From Lachnospiraceae bacterium (GTDB lineage: Bacteria > Bacillota > Clostridia > Lachnospirales > Lachnospiraceae): a DNA stretch of 64,000 nucleotides. The notes beneath the pieces are model-generated. The model was not told the DNA's origin. It saw only the letters and a list, made by a program, of their open reading frames with translations, and searched no databases. Position numbers and translations under genes: made by a program. Location of the stretch: contig JAILRH010000083.1 of assembly GCA_024698345.1 (NCBI GenBank), forward strand, positions 27,430 through 91,429, given 5' to 3'. Position 1 is the first letter of the stretch, and the number at the start of each line of letters is the position of its first letter. Positions 91-57,117 of this stretch are shown one piece after another.

Positions 91-332
91 AAAAGTTATA
101 TCTGGCAACCCATGTGAAGAAAATCCAAAATGGGATGTAAGGTATTTCCGAGAAAAAAGTTATGGCTGGCAACCCATGTGAAGATAATTCAAAATGGGAT
201 GTAAGGTATTTCCGAGAAAAAAGTTAGGGCTAACAACCCATGTGAAGAAAATCCAAAAAGGGATGCAAGAAATTTCTGACAGAAAAGTTATGCCTGGCAA
301 CCCATGTGAAGAAAATCCCAAAAGGGATGTAA
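91..332. repeat. 64-bp tandem repeat, about 3.8 copies
   Basis: Motif ggcaacccatgtgaagaaaatccaaaa starts at 104, 168, 232 (as aacaaccc) and 296: exact 64-bp period; copies diverge by a few bases. Confidence 0.95.
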
Positions 333-478
333 GCATAATGAAATCAAGTTTAATAAGCATACATCCCCAAATGAATTTTGCCAAAAGGGATATATAATGT
401 AGAAGTCCTTAGGTGTAACTAAAAATTAGATTATGTGCCCGTTTCAAAAAGTATACTTTTTAAATTCCTTACCATATG

Positions 479-562: not shown

Positions 563-1936
563 TTATTTTGCCGCCTTTTCAGCTGCGATAGCCTTATCAC
601 TCTTCTTTACAAGGAATAATGACATACATAAAGCTACACAGTAAAGTGCGATTGTTGCATACAATACATACTGGTATCCTGTTGGGTTAACAACCACAGG
701 ATCACCGTGTAATGATCCGTTTACAGGTGTTCCAAACTTACCTACAATCCAGGTTGCCATCTGGTTTCCTGATAATCCTGCAAAAGCCCAAGCAGAAAGT
801 GTGATACCATGGATAGCACTGATGTTACCCATTCCATAGTGGTCTGATAACAATGTTGGAACATTTGAGAAACCACCACCGTATCCTGCATTTACCATAA
901 AGATTAACGCTAATACTAAAATAACAAGAATAGTATTCTTTGTATCAATTGATGTAAATCCTTCAACAGGACTAGCTGCATTCTTAATAGCTCCTGTAAG
1001 CATTACAATACCTGTTAATGCTATTGAAAGAACAAATATTAATTTGTAAATTGTATTTCTGTCTTTCAAACTGTCAGCCCATGCTGAAAATCCTAAACGT
1101 CCACCTGCATTGAAAATAGCAGAAAATGTCGAAATAATACCTGCAAATGCTGCAAGACCTACACACTTAACAATCATCTTCTCCTGAGAGATAAGTGCAA
1201 GACCACAAGTAATGTTGATGTAGAACATTACCCAGATACCAATGTAGTTTGCCCAACCTTTTGTCTTGATTGTAGCAACAATACCTTCGCTCTTATCTTT
1301 GTTTGTAGGCTCAACCCAACCTTCAGGTTTTTTAAGCAGTAAGTGTCCAACAAACATCATGCAGAAATATACTACTGCTAAGATGTAGAACATTTTGCTT
1401 GTTCCAAATTTTGGCTGTAACCACTCCATAATTGGAGATGCGATAGCTTTAGCACCACCAAATCCTGCTACTGCAAGACCTGTTGCCAAACCTTTTCTGT
1501 CTTCAAACCAGAGCATTAATGTCTTAACAGGTGATAAATAACCAGTACCAAGACCAACACCCATAATAAATCCATAACAGATATAAATTCCAAGTAATGC
1601 CACAAGATTATGCTTGTGAGTAGAACCATAATATATAAAGAAACCTGTTCCTGCCATACCTGTTGCAAAACAAATAGTTGCGATTAATGATGAAAGATGA
1701 ATGTTCTTTTCAACAATACCACCAAGAAATGCTGCTGACATTCCAAGGAAGAAAATAGCAAAACTAAATGCCCACTCTACAGCCGGCTTGTCCCAACCGA
1801 TGTCATTTGAAATTGCTTCACTAAATAATGACCAGCAATACACTGTACCGATACTAAAATGTAATAATAATGCAGGGATCGCTGCACGAACCCATTTGTT
1901 GGCTCTCCAACCTTTTGAACTACTACTGTTTCCCAT
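563..1936 (-). CDS. MFS transporter, OFA (oxalate/formate antiporter-like) family
   Basis: 457-aa ORF with about 12 hydrophobic segments; N-terminal HFSIGTVYCWSLF and GYLSPVKTLMLWFEDRKGLATGLAVAGFGGAKAIASP typical of OFA MFS. Confidence 0.9.
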   Translation of the reverse strand: MGNSSSSKGWRANKWVRAAIPALLLHFSIGTVYCWSLFSEAISNDIGWDKPAVEWAFSFAIFFLGMSAAFLGGIVEKNIHLSSLIATICFATGMAGTGFFIYYGSTHKHNLVALLGIYICYGFIMGVGLGTGYLSPVKTLMLWFEDRKGLATGLAVAGFGGAKAIASPIMEWLQPKFGTSKMFYILAVVYFCMMFVGHLLLKKPEGWVEPTNKDKSEGIVATIKTKGWANYIGIWVMFYINITCGLALISQEKMIVKCVGLAAFAGIISTFSAIFNAGGRLGFSAWADSLKDRNTIYKLIFVLSIALTGIVMLTGAIKNAASPVEGFTSIDTKNTILVILVLALIFMVNAGYGGGFSNVPTLLSDHYGMGNISAIHGITLSAWAFAGLSGNQMATWIVGKFGTPVNGSLHGDPVVVNPTGYQYVLYATIALYCVALCMSLFLVKKSDKAIAAEKAAK

Positions 1937-19519: not shown

Positions 19520-19562
19520 AAAAATGTCAGGAACCATAAAACGTGTTCCTGACATTTTTAAC
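19520..19562. terminator. Rho-independent bidirectional terminator
   Basis: aaaaatgtcaggaac ... gttcctgacattttt 15-bp stem. Confidence 0.92.
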
Positions 19563-19599: not shown

Positions 19600-19735
19600 A
19601 TCTACTTGAAGTGGTACCAATCTCACATCTGATATTTACTTGAAGTGGTACCAGTCTCACATCTGATATTTATTTGAAATGATACCAATCTCACATCTGG
19701 TATTTATTTGAAATAGAGGTCATCTAACATTTGAA
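19600..19735. repeat. 34-bp tandem repeat, about 4 copies
   Basis: acttgaagtggtaccaatctcacatctgatattt: starts at 19604, 19638, 19672, 19706 (34-bp period); last copy reaches the 3' end of the next gene. Confidence 0.95.
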
Positions 19736-27293: not shown

Positions 27294-27322
27294 AACTGCC
27301 TCCTTATTAAAAACGAGAATAA

Positions 27323-27406
27323 ACATCTCTGATCAATATACATCTCTGATTAATATACATCTCTGATTAATATACATCTCTGATTAATAAACATTTTTGA
27401 TTATAT
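27323..27406. repeat. 17-bp tandem repeat, 5 copies, upstream of the response-regulator gene
   Basis: acatctctgattaatat starts at 27323, 27340, 27357, 27374, 27391 (last copy degenerate). Confidence 0.95.
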
Positions 27407-52391: not shown

Positions 52392-53783
52392 TTACTTCTT
52401 GTAAGCTTCATGAGTTCCGTCCAGATACCGTTCTTCTTCTTTTGTTAAAGAAAAGCCAAACATTTTGAGAATATTTACAATGGCATTTGCCTTTTTAGCT
52501 CTTTCGTTATCAAATTCATTATTGTAATTATGCGCTTCACCAAAATCGCAGCCATCATACATAGCTAAAAGCATTTGGTAAGGTACAGGATAACCATTTA
52601 TTATCTCTACCAGGTTTTCTTTTTCCTCATCTGTCAAGTTCCAATAATTCTTGTCTTCTCCATAAACCAAATTGTTTAGCGCACATAAAACAACAGCTCT
52701 CCTACAAGATGGACTGTAGAGAGTAAACACTCCCCACATCTTCTCTGTAAGTTCTTCAGCTTTCACCCATTCAATATTTTTGAGAAGAATCTGTTCAATT
52801 GTTGTAGTGATTTTTTCTGACAAATCATCTTTTAAAGCATTAAGCACCTTTTTATTTTTTCTTTTGAGCTTTTCTTCTTCCGAAAGACCTTTCTGCTTTT
52901 CTTCTTTTTTTGTTTTTTCTGCAATAATAATTTTTGAAAAGGACCTGCTATAGTAAAGAATTCCGTCCACTTTTTTCAACTTGATTTTGTCCGGGACGTC
53001 TTTGTCCAAATCAATTTCTTTGATAACCTTCCACTTATCTTCCCAGCTGTAAATCCTGTCCGCCTCTTTAACAATTAAGTAATTCTTGTTGAGCTGTTCC
53101 AAAATCTTTTTATAGTTTTCTTCTCGTTTTTCCTCAACAGCTGCAGTATTGGCCATGTATTTTAAACTCTTACTATCTCTTGCATTCTTAAGTATTTCAT
53201 TTCGCTTTTTTAAGTCCTTAACTTTTTCCAACGATATCAGGTCTTGAATGTTCAGCTGAAAGTTATCGTCCTCTTCCTTTTTCTTTAATTCTTCCTGGTT
53301 AAGTTTGGCTATATTGATACGGTGATAGATAGTTGTCTTTGAAAATCCTGTTTTTTCGGATACACTTTCTACCGTCTCTCCTAGATCCAACATCAGCTGA
53401 AAGCTTTGTGCCTGCTCATATACAGTCAAATTATTTCGCTGCATATTCTCTTCAAGCATTATGCTTATCTGATCACTCTTGCTTATTCCGCTGACAACTT
53501 TACACGGGACCTTATCAAGTCCGGCTGCTTTTGCCGCAGCTAATCTTCTATGACCAATCAAAACTACGTATTTCTTTAATGCAGCTTTTCGAATGTCCGG
53601 TTGCTCATCAGCTGGTAGTTTCAAACACTCTTCAGGCATTACTGTCAAATTTTGCATTATGCCATTCTTTTTAATTGACTCAATTAACTCGCTTATATCC
53701 CCCACATCCAATCTCGGATTGTCCGGATGTGGATTAATCTTGAAGATATCAAGCATCGTAATCATTCTCATTTCTTGCTTCAT
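52392..53783 (-). CDS. ParB/Spo0J-family nuclease-domain protein
   Basis: FKINPHPDNPRLDVGDISELIESIKKNGIMQNLTV, IGHRRLAAAKAAGLDKVPC, HTH QSFQLMLDLGETVESVSEKTGFSKTTIYHR; start adjusted. Confidence 0.88.
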   Translation of the reverse strand: MKQEMRMITMLDIFKINPHPDNPRLDVGDISELIESIKKNGIMQNLTVMPEECLKLPADEQPDIRKAALKKYVVLIGHRRLAAAKAAGLDKVPCKVVSGISKSDQISIMLEENMQRNNLTVYEQAQSFQLMLDLGETVESVSEKTGFSKTTIYHRINIAKLNQEELKKKEEDDNFQLNIQDLISLEKVKDLKKRNEILKNARDSKSLKYMANTAAVEEKREENYKKILEQLNKNYLIVKEADRIYSWEDKWKVIKEIDLDKDVPDKIKLKKVDGILYYSRSFSKIIIAEKTKKEEKQKGLSEEEKLKRKNKKVLNALKDDLSEKITTTIEQILLKNIEWVKAEELTEKMWGVFTLYSPSCRRAVVLCALNNLVYGEDKNYWNLTDEEKENLVEIINGYPVPYQMLLAMYDGCDFGEAHNYNNEFDNERAKKANAIVNILKMFGFSLTKEEERYLDGTHEAYKK

Positions 53784-53803
53784 TTCAATCTCCTTTCTCT
53801 TCT

Positions 53804-53968
53804 CTACATTCTCATCTTCCAACTGCACTTATCGCACTGTGCAGCCGAAAGCCTTCCGTTGGTGGTCCTGTAAGTAATACTTCCACCACATTCACATTTG
53901 GCTGTTTTCTCGCCGTTCTTTATTGCTGCAAGAATCATCTGCAGCTTATTAATTGAATTCATCATCAT
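53804..53968 (-). CDS. About 54-aa zinc-ribbon protein (not in ORF track)
   Basis: M(M)MNSINKLQMILAAIKNGEKTAKCECGGSITYRTTNGRLSAAQCDKCSWKMRM*. Confidence 0.65.
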   Translation of the reverse strand: MMMNSINKLQMILAAIKNGEKTAKCECGGSITYRTTNGRLSAAQCDKCSWKMRM

Positions 53969-54236
53969 TGTTTATCCTCTTTTTTTCAAAGTATATTTTT
54001 TCTAACTCCAACACTACTTGCAGAGTTATTTTTCTAACAAATTCTGTATTCCCATATTTGAGTGTTAGCTTTTCTGCTTCATCCATTAACAATTCCCAAT
54101 ACGAGTCATTGTCTCTTGGATTTCTGTATTTAAAAAATAATTTCCAAACATCGCAGACAAACTGATAATATAGCTTTAATCTTTTTTCGGTCATATCACT
54201 CCACTTCTTCCACGTAGATATATATTCCTGGTACAT
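53949..54236 (-). CDS. Hypothetical phage protein
   Basis: 95-aa ORF. Confidence 0.6.
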   Translation of the reverse strand: MYQEYISTWKKWSDMTEKRLKLYYQFVCDVWKLFFKYRNPRDNDSYWELLMDEAEKLTLKYGNTEFVRKITLQVVLELEKIYFEKKRINNDDEFN

Positions 54237-54594
54237 CCGCCCAAAATTTTTCTATGATTTCCGAAACCACCAATGCATCATCCTTCCAATAATGCAACTT
54301 AGTCATTACGTCCTTGAGCATCTTTTGGAGGTTATCTGTATCAGGCTTGCTTGATTTCCATTCTCCGTTTATATGATTTCCTTTGATTGGGAAGCACCAT
54401 TTCACTAACAGCCTTACCGGTCCTGTATATTCTATTTCCGGAACGTACTTTCCTAAATGTGCTTCCAGTTTCTGTTTAGCTGCTTTCAGTTCTGGTGGAT
54501 CATAAAAAACAACCCTACCATTTTTTGTTGATACTTTATGTTCCTGATGAGTTACCGTTGGTGGTATCATCGGAATGAAAAATTTAATTTCCAA
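54196..54594 (-). CDS. RusA-family Holliday junction resolvase
   Basis: IPPTVTHQEHKV, KPDTDNLQKMLKDVMTKLHYWKDDALV; TTG start proposed after AAAGGAGAT because the N-terminal extension overlaps a cruciform. Confidence 0.8.
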   Translation of the reverse strand: MEIKFFIPMIPPTVTHQEHKVSTKNGRVVFYDPPELKAAKQKLEAHLGKYVPEIEYTGPVRLLVKWCFPIKGNHINGEWKSSKPDTDNLQKMLKDVMTKLHYWKDDALVVSEIIEKFWADVPGIYIYVEEVE

Positions 54595-54618
54595 TTCAAA
54601 ATCTCCTTTCGCCTTTAA

Positions 54619-54684
54619 GTCAATGTCAGTGGAAGGAGTTGTGTTGTGCGTGAGCGTAAACGCACAACTACTTTCCACATTGAC
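54619..54684. repeat. Long imperfect inverted repeat (cruciform)
   Basis: gtcaatg..tggaa..gttgtgcgt[8 nt]acgcacaac..ttcca-cattgac: 21 paired positions. Confidence 0.85.
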
Positions 54685-54731
54685 GTTTACGGAAATGCCA
54701 ATATATATATGAAATATATATATGTGTTTTC

Positions 54732-54870
54732 TTCCAAATCGGAAAATATCGATAAATAATCGAGAATTTCCAAGTTTTTTTCCAAATCGGAAAATATCGA
54801 TAAATAATCGAGAATTTCCAAATCGGAAAATATCGATAAATAATCGAGAATTTCCAAATCGGAAAAAAGA
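54732..54870. repeat. 36-bp iteron-like tandem repeats, about 3.5 copies
   Basis: tttccaaatcggaaaatatcgataaataatcgagaa at 54732, 54780, 54816, 54852; one 12-bp expansion between copies 1 and 2. Confidence 0.93.
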
Positions 54871-54900
54871 AAATCATTCGAGTTTTTCCATTTCCATTTT

Positions 54901-57117
54901 TTATTTTTTTACGATTTCACCGCTGCTTAATACTAAGAATCCGCCATGCTCTTTTAATCTATTTTTCACAGTTTTTTCTGTCACTCCCATCGCTTCTGCC
55001 ATATTCGCAAGAGTGACTTTTCCACCTTCAAATGACTTTAAACTTTCATAATTTTGTTCTACTGTTTTAATTCGTTCCTTCTTTTTATCTTCCGGAGTCT
55101 TTTTATTATTAAAATTTTTCTTCCAAGGACTCCCCTTGCTGTTCTCAATAACGATATCTCCCAGTGCTCCTGATTTGTCCTGCTTATGTATTGGATAATC
55201 AAACCACAGGTTTACCGGACTGAATTTTGGAAACTCTCTAAGAGTCCCTTCGATTCGCCATGCTGTCCTATTTAAAACTTCGGCGCTCTTTTCTGTTAAT
55301 CTTTCCAGTAATTCATCATATTGGTCATCACTAAGCATCTCTTTGCAAGCTTTCTTCATCTGGGCACTGCTACATATATCGTCCTGAGATACATGGAATT
55401 TCCAATCGTTTACATACTCTTCCAGAACTCCCATACACACTTCACATGCTGCATTATTTATTGCATTTTCATTTATTGCATCTGTTGTTTCAAGTTCAAT
55501 TAAGTCAAGTAGCGCGTCCGGATCACGTGCAAACACTCCGGAACCTGAAGCCCTGTCCATTGATTTCTTACCGCCTTGGGAACCCTTTGAATGATGATGG
55601 CAATATATAACCGCGCATCCAAGCTCCGTACATACCTTGTCGAATTGGTTGCAAAAATGAGCCATTTGGTCAGCTGAGTTTTCATCGCCAGTAATGATTT
55701 TGTAAATAGGGTCGATAACAATAGCCAAATAATCCTTTTTAGCAGCTCTTCTAATCAACTTTGGAGCTAGCTTATCCATTGGTATCGAACGTCCTCTCAG
55801 ATTCCATATGTCTATATTGGCCAAGTTGCTAGGCTTCAATCCTAAAGCGTTATATACGTCCTTAAATCTATGTAAGCAGGACGCTCTGTCTAATTCCAGA
55901 TTCACGTATAGCACCTTACCTTGTGTGCAGTTCCATTCAAGCCATTTAGAGCCTTCTGCAATAGCGATACACATCTCTATTAATGCGAATGACTTACCTG
56001 CTTTTGATGGTCCTGCAATAAGCATTTTATGGCCTTTTCTAAGTACTCCTTCAATTAACGGTTCTGCGAGCTCCGGCATATCTTCCCATTGTTCCGATAA
56101 ACTTTCTGGATCAGGAAGGTCATCATTGATTGATTCAATCCATTCTTTCCATTCGTCCCAGGACTCTTTTCCGATATTGGTATCGATAAGAAACTGTTTA
56201 CTGTCTCCACGAACTACTCCAGGCATTCTTGAAAGTCTACTTGGATTCTTATTCTGCGTGTCTACAACTAATCCATTTTTCTTGCAGACAGAATAAAGAT
56301 ATTCAACTCGCTTTCTGTATTCATCATATGTTGGAGCATCAACCTTCACGATGGCATGTATACTCTTTTTTCCACTGAATACCAAGCACGCTATAGGCAG
56401 CTCTAATTCTCTGAGAATGGCATTCTGCTTATCAAGCTCCATTGCGTCTGATTCTACAAGTGCATATTTATATTCGGTCACATTATCATTTCTGACACCT
56501 TTGCCATCAAGTGGATTGAATCTAATCCATGCTCCAGCTTCTTTTTTGTAATCTCCAAGAACGGCTCCTATATCGCCTTTACATTTATTTAATGCCTGAA
56601 TAAGCTCCCCTGCTGTTCTGTCCCAATTTCCTTTTGTTGGCAGGTATTTACCATCTTTCTCCCATGTCTCTGTTACATACCCAACTATTTCGGTTGAATC
56701 AAATAATGTTTCTATGTATGTTATTAAGTCTTTAACAGGATCCCAATTGGTAGGGACATGTATGTCCTTACCTTCAATCCACGCGGAGTCGACCACCACT
56801 AAATCATCTTTTGCACCAATTAAGTCATTCCAACCCAACTCATGATACTCTTTACGTTGTGGTATCCATCCATTATCCTTTGCCATTTGAACTATAGTAC
56901 CGGCTGTAACCGGAACGGCAGTACCTCTGAACGTTTCCCATTTGCGAAAACATTCACCCTTGTGGTATCTGCCGTCTTGCTTGCTCCAATTATCCCAATC
57001 ATAAGCAGTGTAACCTGCTTCCTTGAGTGCCATACCAACATTAATCCATTCTTGATAATCAAGAGAGCTAGGTTGGATATATTCAAGTAATTCAATTAAA
57101 TTAATGTTATTTTCCAT
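54901..57117 (-). CDS. Phage primase/helicase-like replication protein (PriCT + primase-pol + AAA_25)
   Basis: QEWINVGMALKEAGYTAYDWDNWSKQDGRYHKGECFRKWETF; FSGKKSIHAIVKVDA; Walker A LIAGPSKAGKSFALIEM. Confidence 0.88.
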   Translation of the reverse strand: MENNINLIELLEYIQPSSLDYQEWINVGMALKEAGYTAYDWDNWSKQDGRYHKGECFRKWETFRGTAVPVTAGTIVQMAKDNGWIPQRKEYHELGWNDLIGAKDDLVVVDSAWIEGKDIHVPTNWDPVKDLITYIETLFDSTEIVGYVTETWEKDGKYLPTKGNWDRTAGELIQALNKCKGDIGAVLGDYKKEAGAWIRFNPLDGKGVRNDNVTEYKYALVESDAMELDKQNAILRELELPIACLVFSGKKSIHAIVKVDAPTYDEYRKRVEYLYSVCKKNGLVVDTQNKNPSRLSRMPGVVRGDSKQFLIDTNIGKESWDEWKEWIESINDDLPDPESLSEQWEDMPELAEPLIEGVLRKGHKMLIAGPSKAGKSFALIEMCIAIAEGSKWLEWNCTQGKVLYVNLELDRASCLHRFKDVYNALGLKPSNLANIDIWNLRGRSIPMDKLAPKLIRRAAKKDYLAIVIDPIYKIITGDENSADQMAHFCNQFDKVCTELGCAVIYCHHHSKGSQGGKKSMDRASGSGVFARDPDALLDLIELETTDAINENAINNAACEVCMGVLEEYVNDWKFHVSQDDICSSAQMKKACKEMLSDDQYDELLERLTEKSAEVLNRTAWRIEGTLREFPKFSPVNLWFDYPIHKQDKSGALGDIVIENSKGSPWKKNFNNKKTPEDKKKERIKTVEQNYESLKSFEGGKVTLANMAEAMGVTEKTVKNRLKEHGGFLVLSSGEIVKK

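Follow-up and report, generated by a model that had tools for sequence, protein, structure and literature searches.

Downstream of the gene for a 738-residue initiator protein, the stretch of DNA analysed here (64 kb, hereafter the window) carries a compact patch of repeats and hairpins, which raises the question of what the patch does and which protein reads it. The initial annotation had taken it for an origin-like element beside an initiator gene, a reading that comparison strongly supports: the layout in relatives, a covarying hairpin and the coevolution of the repeat word with a recognition helix all agree with it. The patch is very probably the start of DNA copying in this prophage, as judged from sequence and its comparison.

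The intergenic gap and its putative initiator gene

The longest open reading frame of the neighbouring rusA starts at a GTG (54678) that falls in the hairpin; a TTG behind AAAGGAGA, at 54594, is more likely to be used. Since RusA very probably starts at this TTG, 306 bp (54595-54900) separate rusA from the stop codon of the 738-aa gene, and all elements are intergenic. In gene direction, degenerate half-sites come first, followed by three 31-bp palindromic units, then a perfect AT dyad and finally an imperfect stem of 66 nt (Table 1).

Table 1. Features of the putative origin and of the genes and protein domains next to it (window coordinates unless residues are given)
Feature	Position	Strand	Basis or remark
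RusA Holliday-junction resolvase, next gene	54196..54594	-	Pfam RusA; TTG start behind AAAGGAGA; outside origin
Long imperfect stem-loop	54619..54684		Folding and covariation in relatives; probable cruciform or single-strand priming site
AT dyad, probable unwinding element	54701..54723		Perfect inverted repeat
Iteron unit, 31-bp nested palindrome	54741..54771		
Iteron unit, 31-bp nested palindrome	54789..54819		
Iteron unit, 31-bp nested palindrome	54825..54855		Closest to initiator gene
Degenerate half-sites (TTTCC words)	54880..54899		Directly 3' of initiator stop codon
Initiator gene, 738 aa	54901..57117	-	Pfam, PHROG 2597 'DNA primase', structure models, Foldseek
Recognition helix codons, residues 714-724 (E714 K715 T716 V717 K718 N719 R720 ...)	54946..54978	-	Helix in model
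N668-F669 codons, basic arm, predicted reader of inner repeat part	55111..55116	-	Top two columns for inner type
PriCT_2	Residues 8-79		Pfam
AEP primase-polymerase fold	Residues ~120-335		Structure model, Foldseek
RepA-type helicase, AAA_25	Residues 348-513		Pfam, Foldseek to RSF1010 RepA
Basic arm	Residues ~664-680		
C-terminal winged helix	Residues ~681-738		Structure model

The stem, the AT dyad and the repeats named initially are all present in the window; the description of the repeats changes. They had been counted as 3.5 copies of a 36-bp unit, and three full copies with partial copies at the ends do exist, but the array is not a uniform 36-mer: the full copies lie at spacings of 48 and 36, with 12 bp between the first two. 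A better description is GGAAA-n3-TCGAT-n5-ATCGA-n3-TTTCC, one nested 31-bp palindrome, and the supposed tttcc-aaatc-ggaaa dyad is the junction between such units. The half-unit pattern occurs six times in the gap and once elsewhere in the window, there with 2 mismatches, and the 36-mer is unique to the gap in the whole genome assembly. Absence of the repeats from sister phages, which the initial annotation had named as evidence against its reading, is not borne out in the sense intended: the exact 40-bp repeat stretch occurs in none of the viral contigs, but the layout is present with other words.

The AT dyad consists of perfect 10-bp arms around a 3-nt spacer, and only three perfect inverted repeats in the window have longer arms. 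The stem pairs gtcaatg with cattgac, tggaa with ttcca and gttgtgcgt with acgcacaac; folded as DNA, it reaches z = -4.9, and none of 200 dinucleotide shuffles folds as well. GC skew has no inflection at the site and is uninformative, because the surrounding genes all run one way. Elsewhere, the window contains perfect inverted repeats at 479-527 (24-bp arms, 1-nt loop) and at 19520-19559 (15-bp arms), the latter close to a 34-bp tandem repeat (19603-19712), as well as tandem repeats of 64 bp (91-333; 3.8 copies, 87% matches) and of 17 bp (27318-27403; 5 copies).

The modelled helicase part of the 738-aa protein finds its best fold match in RSF1010 RepA (1olo/1nlf; Foldseek), with KaiC and DnaB also among the best matches. 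Residues 1-345, modelled apart, match S-2L PrimPol (2.4e-6) and RSF1010 RepB' (1.7e-4) in the fold search, whereas a sequence-profile search of the PDB with the primase region gave no match. The RepA and RepB' matches support the prediction of an RSF1010-like initiator fused into one chain. Domain order and the motif II histidine (H254, invariant, in SGKKSIH) fit the InversePrim family (AEP, PrimPol-PV1), in which likewise a PriCT domain precedes the AEP primase (PriCT-1 in the family paper, Pfam PriCT_2 here), motif II contains a histidine and a RepA-family helicase is fused (PMC5862659). This family is known from Firmicutes prophages and was described from proteins; the accessible parts of that description assign neither an origin nor an origin-reading domain, whereas both are proposed here (PMC5862659).

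The same kind of element in related phages

The region 3' of the initiator gene was read in 80 viral loci, 69 bacterial-genome loci and 12 named phages (including Bacillus BCJA1c, Enterococcus EFC-1 and Faecalibacterium FP_Lugh), the comparison covering about 140 related phages overall. A recurring layout emerged, composed of repeats, a short dyad and a long covarying hairpin. Of 126 loci, 124 have a best hairpin that folds better than every one of 10 shuffles, a count in which lowest-energy picks can confuse the stem proper with iteron dyads. The repeats stand out less often: in only 65 of these loci does the top 6-mer exceed all 100 shuffles, and some relatives have weak repeats. The AT dyad is flanked on both sides, head-to-head, by the phage's own word in 23/48 loci, compared to 2.9% for other words. 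Word-to-word spans peak near 21, 30, 41 and 49 bp, which may point to binding on one helix face.

Two automatic routes to the stem were abandoned: choosing the hairpin by lowest energy across the whole gap failed to separate the true stem from iteron dyads, and the RNAalifold structure on a MAFFT alignment comprised 4 pairs only, because the flanks were misaligned, so that the covariance model from it was set aside. Pair counts were instead based on a named structure. Across an alignment of 27 stems, 91.6% of cells are paired, with many double changes, as opposed to 39-59% when partners are slid, and covariation amounts to 0.242 vs 0.115 in shuffles.

Two side observations concern individual loci. 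In L001, a sister phage whose helicase domain is 99% identical, the inner repeat segment is the reverse complement of that at window 54725-54870 (TCGATAAATAATCGA for TCGATTATTTATCGA) in all complete copies, which hints at concerted change. A ParB_N-domain gene lies near the origin (52392-53828), and a ParB-like ORF directly follows the origin in the relatives L047 and L150.

Predicted reader residues, repeat words and cassette exchange

The repeat word varies by phage (GGAAA, GGACA, CGACA, TGACA, GTCAA, CGCAA and others), and the repeat sequence tracks the C-terminal winged helix of the initiator. The three columns most informative on the word, out of 738, are K715, N719 and K718, all in the predicted recognition helix. 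A rule for residue 719 (Asn or Ser with GGAAA, Arg with GGACA) was drawn from the viral loci and fixed before the genome loci were fetched; counted among non-identical loci with K715 and T/S716, it was right in 28/28 held-out genome loci (Fisher 3e-8), non-Arg residues going with GGAAA in 16/16 and Arg with GGACA in 12/12. In the discovery set, the source of the rule, the raw count is 29/33 with the majority word, and the four exceptions have at most 2 copies of either word each. At word position 1, K718 goes with T (6/6) and R718 with G (47/47), and in a distant Y/H718 clade TAAA accompanies Asn and TAAC accompanies Arg (11/11; another member carries Thr). Some loci, for example FP_Lugh and L078, carry a word other than the expected one. 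Arginine-guanine and asparagine-adenine contacts are known modes of base recognition. On a backbone tree (residues 1-650; loci with at least 3 word copies), there are 14 residue changes and 14 word changes, 55/55 loci are concordant and independent pairs stand at 12:0 (p = 0.0005).

The inner part of the repeat comes in two types, TCG..CGA and AAC..GTT, each shared across many phages. N668 and F669 are the top two of all columns for inner type, holding 0.75-0.78 of 0.985 bits, and inner type tracks N668 in 53/56 loci, with independent pairs at 8:0 on the tree, a link that was found after the fact. Because the inner half thus tracks basic-arm residues of the same protein, one protein, the 738-aa initiator, probably reads both halves.

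Domain and site also appear to travel together. Between L025 and L101, DNA identity is 93-100% until some 250 bp ahead of the stop codon, drops to 36-78% over the stretch that ends about 420 bp past it, and returns to 91-100% thereafter; L106/L148 and L092/L096 follow the same pattern. Judging from these alignments, near-identical phages have exchanged winged-helix domain and origin together as a cassette of ~0.5-0.8 kb. The stem is not tied to the word, since L060 and L073 differ in domain and repeats but are largely alike past the repeats. For the 89 pairs whose helicases are at least 88% identical, median identity falls from 92% in the helicase to 43% at residues 713-719, the remainder of the domain standing at 71%. 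Two pairs with 99% identical helicases, L055/L059 and L066/L070, have recognition helices (713-719) only 43% and 29% identical, a strong difference that suggests diversifying selection.

Cassette transfers account for some of the backbone-tree switches, so that independent inventions number fewer than 14, and the doubt that the swaps cast on the independence of the switches called for a recheck on the domain's own tree. This tree still gives 14:14, but only 3 well-supported pairs. Shared ancestry and cassette transfer might then account for the correlation of residues and words without any direct reading, as domain and repeats move together and well-supported contrasts on the domain tree are few; this is nevertheless very improbable, given that the signal concentrates in the recognition helix and the arm preceding it and that a given residue change is accompanied by the same base change in words that otherwise differ. 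Moreover, near-identical domains in which the residue has changed carry a changed word (L032/L034, 96%, and L061/L074, 93% identity outside 713-719), and these pairs argue for direct reading of the word by the domain. A division of labour, in which the phage initiator would occupy one dyad and a host factor the second, is somewhat less implausible, though still unlikely: the initial annotation had envisaged two different proteins on the double dyad, and the repeat does have two distinct parts, of which the inner one is common to many phages. Yet initiator residues 668/669 best predict the inner type and change together with it on the tree, so that both outer (715/718/719) and inner (668/669) correlates reside in the 738-aa protein.

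Proposed mechanism, known systems and meaning

As a whole, the data are best explained by an origin and a one-chain initiator that would read the iterons, open the dyad and prime at the stem, with cassette exchange between phages (probability roughly 0.88). The comparison supports the element, its position, the reader residues and the stem pairing, whereas we infer opening, loading, priming and direction. These elements could act together in the following manner: The initiator, presumably of InversePrim type, would be a single chain uniting a primase, a RepA-type helicase and a winged helix for origin binding. Copies of this last domain may bind the outer words GGAAA...TTTCC via residues 715, 718 and 719, while the basic arm in front of it (N668, F669) may read the inner TCGA part. 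Initiators bound head-to-head around the AT dyad would open it, and the RepA-type helicase would load. The long stem, then exposed, may serve the primase domain as a structured start site, similar to RepB' at the RSF1010 ssi hairpins. Movement of winged helix and repeats as one cassette would endow each phage with its own origin specificity.

Two other functions of the patch have to be weighed. Palindromic repeats and a stem in the intergenic gap of one operon, the stem just upstream of rusA in the window, could be operators, bound by the initiator or another protein, for the downstream genes, with the hairpin acting in the mRNA. This is improbable: promoter-like matches are at chance level, the scan found no terminator-like site, no Rfam family reaches its gathering score, and the next gene varies among relatives whereas the position of the element, 3' of the initiator, does not change. 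A recombination or resolution site, in which the stem is a cruciform cut by RusA rather than a priming or initiation element, is a little less remote, though still unlikely. RusA is often the next or a nearby gene in the named phages and the stem could extrude as a cruciform; however, other genes come next in some relatives, the primase fold resembles RepB', a hairpin user, and replication of pRN1 requires a stem-loop 3' of its primase-helicase gene (PMC4234260).

Known systems offer precedents for each step of the initiation mechanism proposed above, none of them, on this comparison, with the whole set. The RSF1010 (IncQ) replicon comprises RepC iterons, the RepA helicase and the RepB' primase acting on the ssiA/ssiB hairpins (PMC4234260). 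Its RepA and RepB' folds are matched here, and both origins have iterons, an AT-rich element and a hairpin. In RSF1010, these functions reside in separate proteins, RepC binding the iterons, whereas iteron binding, helicase and primase are predicted in one chain here, the reader mapping by coevolution to the initiator's own C-terminal domain; two short ssi hairpins contrast with one long covarying stem, and, unlike in RSF1010, the origin lies 3' of the initiator gene and its sequence specificity varies widely. In SaPI Rep/ori and SCCmec Cch2/ori, iterons that immediately follow the initiator helicase gene are recognised by the C-terminal domain of the encoded protein, a likeness seen here by coevolution only; these systems have a separate primase, and their description, in its accessible parts, mentions no large covarying hairpin or residue code (PMC7581432). 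The RecA-like best folds of the 738-aa helicase (RepA, KaiC, DnaB) suggest that it belongs to another helicase class than theirs. PLE RepA_N/ori resembles the present system in the joint exchange of origin-binding domain and origin and in semi-palindromic iterons of ~30 bp; its RepA_N domain is unrelated and N-terminal, and few replicon types are described, as opposed to many words here (PMC8263062, PMC7145576). The anti-origin nuclease Odn belongs to the same comparison (PMC8263062, PMC7145576). ORF904 of pRN1 is a primase-helicase with a C-terminal winged helix, and the large, structurally conserved stem-loop 3' of its gene is the origin, sufficient together with the replication operon; it has an SF3 helicase and no iterons, in contrast to the AAA_25/RepA fold and iterons here (PMC4234260). 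In lambda O-type origins, the iterons lie inside the initiator gene rather than 3' of its stop codon. The literature searched, mostly outside subscription journals, yielded no earlier description of the origin reported here.

It is likely, on the evidence of these sequences, that a family of Firmicutes prophages uses an initiator with a readable residue code in two parts (outer word by 715/718/719, inner part by 668/669), in which reader and origin are exchanged as a cassette and close relatives fall into many origin-specificity groups. The surprise is the legible, fast-changing link between initiator and site, together with its exchange as a cassette, rather than the origin itself. That reader and site are exchanged together suggests selection for divergence, which perhaps avoids titration by a resident prophage origin or origin-directed nucleases (PMC8263062); ectopic lambda origins are known to block lambda (PMC4488673). 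The comparison also provides a rule by which the origin can be located in many Firmicutes prophages, 3' of a single annotated gene, and dozens of natural matched pairs of reader and site, including near-identical proteins that differ at one or two predicted contact residues, which make an initiator's change of origin specificity directly testable. If the reading is correct, membership of such a specificity group could determine whether phages, prophages and satellites are able to share one another's replication, titrate it or hijack it.
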